From Kushneria sinocarnis (GTDB taxonomy: Bacteria > Pseudomonadota > Gammaproteobacteria > Pseudomonadales > Halomonadaceae), in assembly GCF_003633775.1 (NCBI RefSeq), contig NZ_RBIN01000005.1:186001-250000 (forward strand): a stretch of DNA of 64,000 nt. The letters are read 5' to 3'. The translations under genes and the position numbers were made by a program. Positions 27,423-61,599 of the stretch are shown here, piece by piece. Each line of letters starts with the position of its first letter. Position 1 is the first letter of the stretch. A model generated the notes under the pieces. The model did no database searches. It was given only the letters and a program-made list of their open reading frames with translations, and was not told the origin of the DNA.

Positions 27423-27650
27423 TCAGCGGGCCGAACGCCGCTCGCCCGGCGCCGGCCCGCGAGCGGTCAGCGGCAACCGGGCGCACAGCCGCTCCTTCAG
27501 CGAGGGCGCCGCAATCCGACGGACATCCTGCCAGGCACAGCGGATGGTCCGACCATGAATCTCGACCAGACACTCTTCTCCCAGCCGGCTGAGCGGATGA
27601 ATGCCCTTGCGTTCCAGACGTTCGAGTTCCTGTGGGGTCAGTTCCATCAT
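27423..27650 (-). CDS. Small hypothetical protein, 75 residues
   Basis: A short charged protein that begins MMELTPQELERLERKG and contains CLVEIHGRTIRCAWQDVRRIA. There is no signal peptide or membrane segment. The ATG at 27650 is chosen over a longer start at 27683 because GGGAGG lies eight bases before it. It is convergent with ppsR. The good ribosome site and the orderly amphipathic N terminus support a real gene; the function is unknown. Confidence 0.6.
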   Translation of the reverse strand: MMELTPQELERLERKGIHPLSRLGEECLVEIHGRTIRCAWQDVRRIAAPSLKERLCARLPLTARGPAPGERRSAR

Positions 27651-27858
27651 GTCGAAAACCTCCCGGGTGGTAGAACCCTGCAAGCCGGCAGCCGCGCCTT
27701 CAGTACCGCGCTGCCGGAGACAGTCTGCCCCGCCGTGATGTCGTTTTGATGACGCCAGCCCGGTGAGCGGTGATCAACAGCGGCGCTGTAACACGTCATA
27801 ATGGCCGCCATGCCGGCTACCGCATGCCGGCCGCCGCTCCCTGGGACAAGAGGCCTTC

Positions 27859-54834: not shown

Positions 54835-55797
54835 TTGAATGCGCGTACGCTACTGGCACTGGGCAGCGTAAATGCCGACTTTCAGGTTCGGATTGATGAC
54901 ACTCCGGGCAGCGCGGAAACCCTGCTCGCTCATGATCAGCGCCGACTATCGGGCGGCAAGGCCTCCAATGCAGCCTATATAGGCTGCACCTTCGGCTGCC
55001 GCTCCGTATTGCTGGCCTGTGTTGGCGACGATGATCTGGCTACTCATGCGTTGTCACCCCTGCACCGAGCCGGAGTGGATATCAGCCGGGTTGCACGTGC
55101 CGAAGGTGAATCGACCGGCGTTTCGATGATCATGGTGCCTCCGACGGGTAAAAAACAGATCGTGCTGGCAACCAATGCCAACGATCACTGGCCCGAGGAG
55201 TCGATCCAGGCATTACAGGACGAAATCGGCCGAACACCGCTCCCCGCTCTGCTGTCAGTCAATTACGAAGTACCTGCTGATGTGGTCCATCAGGCCATTG
55301 TCATGGCGCATCACCATAACATTCCCATCGTGCTTGACCCCTCCTTTCCCGAGCGGGTCGAGCAGGCGCTGCTCGATCGAATTACCGCCATTACTCCCAA
55401 TGTTGCCGAGGCCAAGGCACTGACCGGGATCGAGGTTGATGGCCCGGAAACAGCCGCCAGGGCGGCGCGCCGACTACTGGATGCCGGGGTTGGAATGGCC
55501 TGCGTCAAGCTGGCCGATGGCGGTTGCGTGCTGGGAACAGGCACAACCCTCTCGCTGATTCCGTCCTGCGATGCCGAGGTTGTCGATACCACCGGTGCCG
55601 GGGATGCTTTCACCGGAGTGCTGGCCGTTGCCCTGCTGGAAGGTTGCGAACCCCTGACAGCTGCGAGCCGCGCGGTCGCCGCCGCCAGCCTGGCAGTGAC
55701 CGCCTATGGCTCGCAGCCCTCCTATCCGGCCCGTGAGTGCATCGAAAAGAGGGTGCCGACACTGTTGCAACATGCAAGGGCGCTGGATGAGCGGTAA
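54835..55797 (+). CDS. PfkB-family sugar kinase (ribokinase-like)
   Basis: A protein of 320 residues with the two PfkB signatures: LSGGKASNAAYIGCTFGC near residue 40 and DTTGAGDAFTGVLAVALL near residue 250, the latter with the catalytic aspartate. It probably phosphorylates a sugar or nucleoside. The start is a TTG with AGGAG nine bases before it. It overlaps the GH65 gene by 11 bases, so the kinase and the phosphorylase are coupled; the kinase may act on the free sugar released by phosphorolysis. Confidence 0.87.
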   Translation: MNARTLLALGSVNADFQVRIDDTPGSAETLLAHDQRRLSGGKASNAAYIGCTFGCRSVLLACVGDDDLATHALSPLHRAGVDISRVARAEGESTGVSMIMVPPTGKKQIVLATNANDHWPEESIQALQDEIGRTPLPALLSVNYEVPADVVHQAIVMAHHHNIPIVLDPSFPERVEQALLDRITAITPNVAEAKALTGIEVDGPETAARAARRLLDAGVGMACVKLADGGCVLGTGTTLSLIPSCDAEVVDTTGAGDAFTGVLAVALLEGCEPLTAASRAVAAASLAVTAYGSQPSYPARECIEKRVPTLLQHARALDER

Positions 55798-59381: not shown

Positions 59382-60221
59382 GTGAGAGAACGAGACGTTG
59401 ATTGCTGGCTGACCGACATGGACGGCGTGCTGGTTCACGAGAACAAGGCGCTGCCCGGGGCTGCGGAACTGATCGAGCAGTGGCGCAGCCAGAGCAAGCC
59501 CTTTCTGGTGCTGACCAACAACTCCATCTATACCCCGCGCGATCTCAGCGCCCGGCTGGGCCGCAGCGGTCTCGAGGTCCCCGAGGACAGCATCTGGACC
59601 TCGGCGCTGGCCACCGCCACCTTCCTGCGCGATCAGTCGCCCAATGGCTCGGCCTTCGTGATCGGCGAGGCCGGCATTACCACCGCCATGCACGAAGCCG
59701 GCTTCGTGATGACCGACGTGGCACCGGATTTCGTGGTGCTCGGCGAGACCCGCACCTACTCCTTCGAGGCGATTACCCGGGCGATCCGGCTGATCAATGA
59801 CGGCGCGCGCTTCATTGCCACCAACCCCGATGTCACCAGTCCCAGCGCCGATGGCCCGCTGCCGGCCACCGGGGCCGTGGCAGCGCTGATCACCAGTGCC
59901 ACCCGGCGTGAGCCCTATGTGATCGGCAAGCCCAACCCGATGATGTTCCGTTCGGCCATGAACCGGCTGGGCGCGCACTCCGAGCGCACCGGCATGATCG
60001 GTGATCGCATGGATACCGACGTGGTGGCCGGCATCGAGGCGGGGCTGCATACCGTGCTGGTGCTCTCCGGCATTGCCGATCGCGCCGAGGTCGAGCGCTA
60101 TCCCTTCCGGCCCAAGGAGATTCTCGATTCGGTGGCCGACCTGCTCGATGAGCCTGCCAGCGGCAACAGCCGCAAATCGAATTCGAAGGAAGCCAAAAAC
60201 ACACGGAAAAGCGAGCAGTAA
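59382..60221 (+). CDS. HAD-IIA family phosphatase (NagD-like)
   Basis: A protein of 279 residues with the HAD motifs DMDGVL (nucleophile Asp near residue 12), LTNNS (motif II) and MIGDRMDTDVVAG (motif IV), and a C2 cap region between them, as in NagD and pyridoxal or sugar phosphatases. The C-terminal 20 residues are rich in Ser, Lys and Asn and look disordered. The start is a GTG with AGGAG eight bases upstream. It follows the SDR by 94 bp. The substrate is unknown. Confidence 0.87.
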   Translation: MRERDVDCWLTDMDGVLVHENKALPGAAELIEQWRSQSKPFLVLTNNSIYTPRDLSARLGRSGLEVPEDSIWTSALATATFLRDQSPNGSAFVIGEAGITTAMHEAGFVMTDVAPDFVVLGETRTYSFEAITRAIRLINDGARFIATNPDVTSPSADGPLPATGAVAALITSATRREPYVIGKPNPMMFRSAMNRLGAHSERTGMIGDRMDTDVVAGIEAGLHTVLVLSGIADRAEVERYPFRPKEILDSVADLLDEPASGNSRKSNSKEAKNTRKSEQ

Positions 60222-60457
60222 CCACTCGGCCTGCGGGCCTCGCCGCAAGCGGGGTCCGGCACCCTCCTCTACGGGATTACCCGGACAGCCGGGATACCGG
60301 CATGGTTATCCCGCTTCCCCTGAGCGCACTGTGAATGATTTTTGATACCGGGATGACGATTTGCGGTCACGGAAGTTCACGAACAGGCGGGATTCTGCCA
60401 GGATGATACTACCCTGCGCTCGGCGCCCTGGGACCCTCGAGGGGTAACAGGCAAGAT
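60222..60457. other. Non-coding region downstream of the HAD gene
   Basis: No gene is recognised. It contains CGGGATA...TATCCCG (about 60291-60314) and a perfect CCCTCGAGGG at 60434-60443, which may be RNA-end structures. It could include the 3' part of the minus-strand regulatory RNA, whose terminator is not evident. Confidence 0.4.
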
Positions 60458-60668
60458 GCAGCGGCCGAACGCTCCCGGACCTGACCGTCAGAAGCGCTGG
60501 CCGCTGCGAGGGTTTTGCATCATCCTGACGCATGGACTTCCTGTCCGACGTACTTCCCTGTACGCCACTGCACGGCCTCCTGCCGTGGTTTCTGACGCAC
60601 TTCCTGTGCGTTCTCAACTCCTGTTGAAGAGCAGCCTTCCCTGCTGCTCCATGGCGTCCCTGCCATGA
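60458..60668 (-). ncRNA. Candidate CsrB/RsmZ-type RNA that sequesters CsrA/RsmA
   Basis: On the minus strand, eight hairpins follow one another at 60650-60667, 60629-60649, 60614-60627, 60595-60611, 60571-60587, 60549-60564, 60534-60546 and 60517-60531. Stems are 4-7 bp, and every loop contains AGGA or AGGGA (AGGGAC, AGGGAAG, AGGA, AGGAA, AGGAG, AGGGAA, AGGAA, AGGAT). Exposed GGA in hairpin loops is the binding signal of CsrA/RsmA, and tandem copies are the hallmark of CsrB, RsmY and RsmZ. A larger hairpin with 9-bp arms (GGCCGCTGC/GCAGCGGCC, 60458-60507) follows. The ends are estimates: no clear promoter, GacA-type box or T-run terminator was seen. There is no protein-coding frame with a plausible product here. 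Confidence 0.8.
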
Positions 60669-60855
60669 ATTCTAACGATAACGCAGAAACACCTCTCTAT
60701 AACTAAACAATGTTATAACTGGGAATGAAGTTTTTTCATGGCGAACACCATTTCCAAATCAAACCTTTCTTCTTATATGAAAGGATTAATACTAATACGT
60801 GCTTAATGCCTAAAAAGGTCAATTAATGTTATTAAGTGTAAACAAGTCTATGGGA
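60669..60855. other. AT-rich region upstream of the RNA
   Basis: 187 bp, markedly AT-rich compared with the window, between the Crp-family gene and the RNA candidate. It should contain the RNA promoter and the end of the Crp transcript. No clear -35/-10 pair can be named; TATCGT (minus strand, 60680-60675) is a weak -10 candidate. Confidence 0.4.
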
Positions 60856-61599
60856 TTAAATTCCTCCCAAAAGGTCTGACATCCTTTCCGAGCGCTCCAG
60901 ATGAAGATAGAGAGGATCGAAGTCGGCAAATTCCGTCAGCCCCTGCCAGTCATGAACGCTCAGCGTGCGCCCGCGCAGAGTGAGCAGGCCCTCCCGGCGC
61001 AGTTTCTGCAGCACCCGATTGGTGTGCACCGTGCTCAACCCCATGGCGTCACTCAACTCATCCTGGGTCAGGGGCAGTTCCATGCAGTGATTCTCCGTCA
61101 GCCCGGCTACTCTGGCACGCACCAGCAATTCGCAGAAAAGATGCGCCAATCGCTGATCGGCCGGGCGATGGCCCTCGTTGACCAGCCATTCCCGCAGGGT
61201 GGCCTCATCCACCAGCGTGGACCAGAACAGTGCCCGGGTAAGCTCGGGGTGATGAGCATAGATATGATCCAGCGCCTGACGCGGAATCCCCGCCACGTGG
61301 GCCCTGGTCAGGATGCCGATGGAGTGATCCATGCGATTCAGCAGGGTGATGTGAATGTCACAGAGGTCACCCGGCATCAGATAGGCCATGATGTGGCGCT
61401 GGCCATCGGCGAGCAGCTTGTAGCGGCACGCCCAGCCGTCGATCATCAGATGGACATGCTCCGGCCGCTCCCCCTCGCTGATGACATCTTCACCCCTGTC
61501 CATCCGGACAGGTGGGGTCAGGGCCTGTTGCAATACCCTTCGATCCTCATCAGCAAGTGGCTGGAAGTTTTCCAGCCGGCATAGCAGGGTTTCGATCAT
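60856..61599 (-). CDS. Crp/Fnr-family transcription regulator
   Basis: A regulator of 247 residues with an N-terminal cyclic-nucleotide-type beta-roll (about 25-120, LLADGQRHIMAYLMPGDLCDIH) and a C-terminal winged helix (LPLTQDELSDAMGLSTVHTNRVLQKLRREGLL, about 175-207). The N terminus lacks the cysteine cluster of FNR, so it is not a classical oxygen sensor. This type is common in Halomonas and Pseudomonas relatives and usually uncharacterised. It is transcribed toward the RNA candidate. Confidence 0.87.
   Translation of the reverse strand: MIETLLCRLENFQPLADEDRRVLQQALTPPVRMDRGEDVISEGERPEHVHLMIDGWACRYKLLADGQRHIMAYLMPGDLCDIHITLLNRMDHSIGILTRAHVAGIPRQALDHIYAHHPELTRALFWSTLVDEATLREWLVNEGHRPADQRLAHLFCELLVRARVAGLTENHCMELPLTQDELSDAMGLSTVHTNRVLQKLRREGLLTLRGRTLSVHDWQGLTEFADFDPLYLHLERSERMSDLLGGI

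Follow-up and report, generated by a model that had tools for sequence, protein, structure and literature searches.

Does the minus strand of the window, a 64,000-nt stretch of the Kushneria sinocarnis genome, encode an RNA that titrates CsrA, and which regulator could drive such an RNA? The initial annotation had described eight tandem hairpins with AGGA or AGGGA in their loops at 60517-60667 and had proposed a CsrB/RsmZ-type CsrA sponge that could govern the switch among carbon stores, gluconeogenesis and aromatic-acid use. We consider it very probable that the locus, hereafter RNA1, is a candidate stand-alone minus-strand gene for a CsrA-titrating small RNA of roughly 210-260 nt. The proposal of a CsrB/RsmZ-type sponge is supported by the anatomy, the chance tests, the conservation in one congener (G007) and the presence of CsrA, whereas the Rfam cut-offs and the search for gacA/uvrY do not support it.

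The hairpin array and its surroundings

Folding of 60517-60669 alone gave eight hairpins in series on the minus strand, each with GGA in the loop (Table 1), and every AGGA/AGGGA within the array has its GGA in a loop. The motif is wholly unpaired in the first seven hairpins; the loop of the eighth consists of GGA only, with the A of the motif serving as part of the closing pair. In order, the cores read CAGGGA, CAGGGA, CAGGA, CAGGA, CAGGA, CAGGGA, CAGGA and CAGGA, with the ACAGG(G)A context at four of the eight motifs and with 19, 20, 17, 24, 22, 17 and 16 nt between successive motif starts. The loop cores agree and the stems differ among hairpins, so the array is no repeat family. Dinucleotide shuffles (n = 2000) produced 0-4 GGA-bearing hairpin loops (four in 5 shuffles) versus the eight of the array, and among 2504 overlapping 152-nt frames on both strands of the window the top frame (seven loops) lay at the array, the next-best place having four. 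The eight tandem hairpins are thereby borne out. A looser motif scanner proved noisy. It reported 6 hairpins on the minus strand at 27489-27668 as well, and among 21 loci of the HAD-type hydrolase gene (L053-L073) it marked clusters of 4-6 at one place or another in 16, clusters that were taken as background; the case rests on the shuffles and folds instead.

Table 1. Features of the RNA1 locus, in window coordinates.
Feature	Position	Strand	Evidence
Array of eight GGA-loop hairpins, candidate CsrA sites	60517..60667	minus	folds, shuffles
Hairpin 1	60667-60650	minus	fold of array alone
Hairpin 2	60649-60629	minus	fold of array alone
Hairpin 3	60628-60613	minus	fold of array alone
Hairpin 4	60611-60595	minus	fold of array alone
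Hairpin 5	60587-60571	minus	fold of array alone
Hairpin 6	60566-60547	minus	fold of array alone
Hairpin 7	60546-60534	minus	fold of array alone
Hairpin 8	60531-60517	minus	fold of array alone
Long GC-rich stem, likely intrinsic terminator	60458..60507	minus	folds, G007 comparison
Complete conserved unit, hairpins and terminator stem, modelled as R1	60449..60671	minus	G007 comparison
Upstream non-coding block, likely promoter/regulatory region	60692..60769	minus	local alignment with G007
Crp/Fnr-type regulator gene, upstream of RNA1	60856..61599	minus	Pfam cNMP_binding, HTH_Crp_2
HAD-type hydrolase gene, convergent with RNA1, synteny flank	59382..60221	plus	protein-family and synteny evidence

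GGA was fully unpaired in all eight hairpins when the array was folded alone. Four longer extents each kept seven of the eight GGA fully unpaired, at the cost of the first, eighth, second and eighth, respectively. Specifically, the minus strand over 60400-60720 (321 nt), the extent singled out by the initial annotation, folds with z = -7.45 (0 of 100 shuffles as stable) and keeps seven GGA hairpins, but a distal stretch near 60400-60410 takes up the eighth GGA by pairing, and read-through beyond the likely terminator could therefore mask that last site.

Concerning the binding motif, the cited part of a SELEX study gives the consensus RUACARGGAUGU for CsrA, GGA within a hairpin loop in 51 of 55 selected RNAs, and a preference for ACA/GGA in hairpin loops, with bridging of sites 10-63 nt apart and an optimum above 18 nt (PMC7652899). 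As read from the sequence, the array motifs are close to this consensus, all eight being CAGGA or CAGGGA, and the spacing of 16-24 nt falls inside the bridging range, with three gaps of 16-17 nt under the optimum. Counting against the likeness, the same part of the study describes ligands mostly with four or fewer contiguous pairs (PMC7652899), whereas stems of 6-7 pairs are found in seven of the eight array hairpins.

Outside the array, the window has a poor U-tract after the likely terminator stem and the copy of G007 a good one (CTTCTTTTTC), and the stem was not among the reports of a simple terminator scan. The HAD gene lies downstream on the opposite strand, and RNA1 is therefore no evident leader. 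The upstream block is kept in G007, where sequence farther upstream could not be aligned; this conserved block, likely a promoter or regulatory region, would be the place to seek the driver of RNA1.

Conservation and alternative readings

Among the 10 genomes of the genus, DNA similarity places RNA1 in 2, G007 and the genome of the window itself (G000), the two copies being 79% identical; a search with model R1, under stricter filters by which weak matches are lost, likewise found it in 2 of 10. In each of the two genomes the unit is flanked by the HAD gene and the pirin gene, and over its first 720 nt the HAD gene has 661 identical positions. When the structure predicted from the window only is applied to G007, 66 of 70 pairs are kept and 4 are broken, with 4 pairs changed on both sides and 10 on one side. 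The joint consensus of window and G007, derived from just the two sequences compared and thin in covariation, holds 68 pairs, 0 broken, with 5 two-sided changes (four in hairpins, one outside). All eight GGA cores are kept in G007, with six motifs exact and the other two changed from AGGA to GGGA; indels of 1, 3, 1 and 1 nt separate the two arrays. Folded alone, G007 shows hairpins 2 and 3 rearranged in one extent and hairpin 5 in another, as judged by eye. Conservation in close relatives, on which the initial annotation had staked the array, thus stands for G007 with its eight cores but was found in only one of nine congeners.

A second copy of RNA1 was not found in its own genome, where the ten other matches listed span 14-31 nt with E of at least 0.9. 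The HAD protein has its best matches (84%) in four named Kushneria genomes, and the HAD locus of these four carries no trace of RNA1 above shuffles; in the HAD loci of 21 genomes the array is absent from the matching place, according to the scanner table and nine stretches inspected. Across 42 genomes of the family, R1, a model of two sequences, gave matches in five: its two sources, G042, G017 and G012. Those in G017 and G012 (E ~0.01) look by eye like gene sequence and were set aside, and that in G042 (locus L176; E 8e-5, 25 bits) was kept as a lead.

At L176:1501-1676 (minus), in this GacA-positive genome of another genus, one more RNA resembling a sponge was noted by eye; it shows several GGA hairpins, together with a -10-like TATAACCT and a clear terminator. 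It has no GacA box within 3 mismatches on the same strand of the locus, and at its 3' end it shares 31 nt with the beginning of a listed frame that resembles PsiE (named by eye).

The Crp/Fnr gene on the same strand stops at 60856, about 190 nt ahead of the first hairpin, and no match to a sigma-70 consensus promoter was found between this stop and the array. Both facts would suit an array that is the 3' UTR of the Crp/Fnr gene, freed by processing, as the cited part of a report describes for RsmW of P. aeruginosa, which derives from a 3' UTR (PMC9308961). We regard this origin as improbable, since G007 keeps RNA1 and the block at 60692-60769 without crp upstream: the best G007 homologue of the Crp protein is 30% identical and encoded elsewhere, and the next listed gene upstream of RNA1 there (ORFs of at least 90 aa) is pirin, ~600 nt off on the opposite strand. 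The absence of crp from that place in G007 makes it not a required part of the locus, but at most a local addition.

Even less probable is a decaying remnant, a former sponge no longer made or terminated in the window's species. The poorer U-tract of the window and the failure to find RNA1 in 8 of 10 genus genomes point that way, but the eight GGA cores are intact, two-sided changes preserve the pairing, and the upstream block is conserved next to sequence that cannot be aligned. Finally, DNA-level palindromes, repeats, a short coding sequence or chance are very hard to credit as the source of the array: short ORFs do run over it (60306-60617 minus and 60456-60668 plus, with a 102-aa minus-strand ORF in G007), but the array indels shift the frame, the two minus-strand ORFs are unlike (14.6 bits, E 0.23 for a single comparison), and shuffles stop at half the observed number of loops.

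CsrA, the apparent lack of GacA and the RNA beside fdxA

A CsrA-titrating RNA thus remains the preferred reading, and we infer that RNA1 is transcribed with ends of its own. Its GGA-loop hairpins would bind several dimers of the single CsrA, this binding would leave less free CsrA, CsrA-controlled mRNAs would be released, and a regulator other than GacA would set the level of RNA1. Of the two homologues that the initial annotation had linked to a sponge, csrA was found, in one copy of normal sequence (91.9 bits) and also in 38 of 38 further genomes, and gacA/uvrY was not, none of orthologue strength being detected in the window genome or its nine congeners. NF007018, which we take to be the UvrY/GacA model, scores 241-307 bits in 48 of 61 genomes of the family and does not exceed 110 in the 13 that remain; the low scores include all four genus genomes sampled among the 61, and the other six of the genus also stay at this level. 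NF008318, presumably the BarA/GacS model, reaches at least 590 bits in every one of the 12 GacA-positive genomes tested, whereas 16 of 16 GacA-negative genomes, all 10 of the genus included, stay at or below 291 bits, over the kinase part only. The best 21 candidates per genome were scored, and no genome reached the model's own cut-off of 890. Judged by these scores, GacS/GacA of convincing homology is absent from all 10 genus genomes, which may hold a very divergent replacement.

Assignment of RNA1 to the Rfam CsrB/RsmB, RsmY or PrrB/RsmZ families, as first envisaged, failed: no family reached its gathering threshold in the window, CsrB, RsmY and PrrB_RsmZ included, and the best match of RNA1 was PrrB_RsmZ with 20.7 bits versus a cut-off of 44. 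Sub-threshold PrrB_RsmZ matches (E up to 10) also occurred in 12 of 14 unrelated control genomes, and at gathering threshold Rfam found nothing in 14 related loci, which comprise L176, the G007 locus L003 and 12 of the 30 loci at fdxA described below. In the window's own genome, the PrrB_RsmZ scan gave a match of this frequent, sub-threshold kind (21.8 bits) at C2:271841-272017. Next to this match stands a ferredoxin gene, which is followed farther out by a frame resembling mutS, and its opposite flank carries a frame resembling enolase (names by eye). Of the other sub-threshold matches, on C6, C1 and C3, those on C6 and C1 were folded and showed no evident array by eye.

All 42 genomes searched contain the ferredoxin gene fdxA, and 30 loci were returned. 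In model R2, built from 11 GacA-positive fdxA loci, 15 of 41 pairs are changed on both sides. R2 matches 24 of the 30 loci at no less than 54 bits, namely the 11 sources and 13 others, the latter including all 10 genus genomes (54-75 bits). Among the remaining loci, L167 (G016) scored 22.6 bits on the unexpected strand and L170 6.4 bits, and L165, L166, L168 and L169 gave no match. R2 matches RNA1 neither at 60449-60671 of the window nor in G007. The two RNAs share GGA-loop hairpins followed by a terminator, a likely one in RNA1, in the same genome, whereas their direct alignment is no better than chance (a fraction of 0.37 of 300 shuffles as good), and RNA1 is a second sponge candidate alongside the RsmZ-like RNA at fdxA. 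A motif common to the upstream regions of both was sought and dropped, with short matches only, the best at a shuffle p of 0.03-0.04 before any correction for the ten comparisons made.

At several GGA sites of the fdxA-linked RNA, most of the eight other genus genomes (L146-L153) were seen by eye to have TGGA, and G000 and G007 AGGA or other forms; in genomes that lack RNA1 the strength of these sites may have drifted. Apart from the genus, the unmatched loci L165 (G024), L166 (G044), L168 (G025) and L169 (G022) belong to GacA-negative genomes of three genera with CsrA present, which would suit a sponge that disappeared or changed place together with GacA. The GacA-positive L170 (G012) lacks both an R2 match beside fdxA and a nearby box (best 4 mismatches) and is an exception to the pattern.

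A GacA box, defined as TGTAAG-N6-CTTACA with up to 2 mismatches (a limit chosen after a first look), stands upstream of the R2-matched RNA in 13 of 13 GacA-positive loci, 154-199 nt ahead of where the model begins. None of the 11 GacA-negative loci, 10 from the genus and one other, has it. Left out of this count are the six loci, 5 GacA-negative and 1 GacA-positive, that R2 did not match convincingly. Shuffled upstream sequence gave the box in 5 of 480 cases, and the association with GacA has a Fisher p of 4e-7, which overstates independence because the loci are related by descent; the 11 box-negative loci may stand for one or two losses. Within 400 nt upstream of RNA1, the best match to the box has 5 mismatches in the window and 4 in G007, and the whole window holds a single 3-mismatch match, far from RNA1, at 54867.

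With GacS/GacA apparently missing from the genus and the box absent upstream of its RsmZ-like RNA, CsrA-titrating RNAs seem to outlast their usual activator. We hold it about evenly balanced whether, in Kushneria, the Csr system was freed from GacS/GacA, with CsrA and the RsmZ-like RNA staying and a sub-lineage adding RNA1 under a new activator. If true, CsrA titration would be a module open to rewiring, able to take a new input, and the loss of Gac with persistence of a sponge would be a more unusual part than RNA1 itself. Since RNAs that seem to outlive their activator offer a natural case, the driver of a sponge without GacA becomes directly testable.

Comparison with known systems

A search of the open-access literature, with subscription papers mostly outside it, returned no report of these RNAs in Halomonadaceae, and the present analysis supplies candidates for the missing sponge RNAs of this family. 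PrrB/RsmZ and RsmY/RsmX of Pseudomonas (RF00166 and relatives) likewise consist of an array of GGA-loop hairpins and then a terminator, for which RNA1 has a likely stem, with CsrA/RsmA present, whereas RNA1 differs in its score (20.7 of 44 bits), in having no GacA box and in its place in the genome. Pseudomonas rsmZ regions have fdxA, mutS and rpoS nearby, according to the cited part of PMC4353343, and it is the fdxA-linked RNA, rather than RNA1, that occupies the rsmZ-like position. CsrB and CsrC of E. coli, with 18 and 11 sites, respond to BarA-UvrY (PMC7366521, cited in part); the principle of many GGA hairpins titrating CsrA is common to them and, as proposed, to RNA1, which differs in having no Rfam match. 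RsmV and RsmW of P. aeruginosa are listed as Gac-independent (PMC7366521, Table 2, cited in part), with lengths of 192 and 224 nt, four CANGGAYG sites in RsmV and three of seven exposed in RsmW (PMC9308961, cited in part). Like RNA1, for which binding is predicted, they are extra CsrA/RsmA-binding RNAs of similar length outside Gac control, and as they are known as Gac-independent sponges, RNA1 belongs to a kind of RNA that is already known. They have fewer sites than the eight candidate sites of RNA1, and P. aeruginosa retains GacS/GacA, unlike the genus of the window with no convincing homologue.
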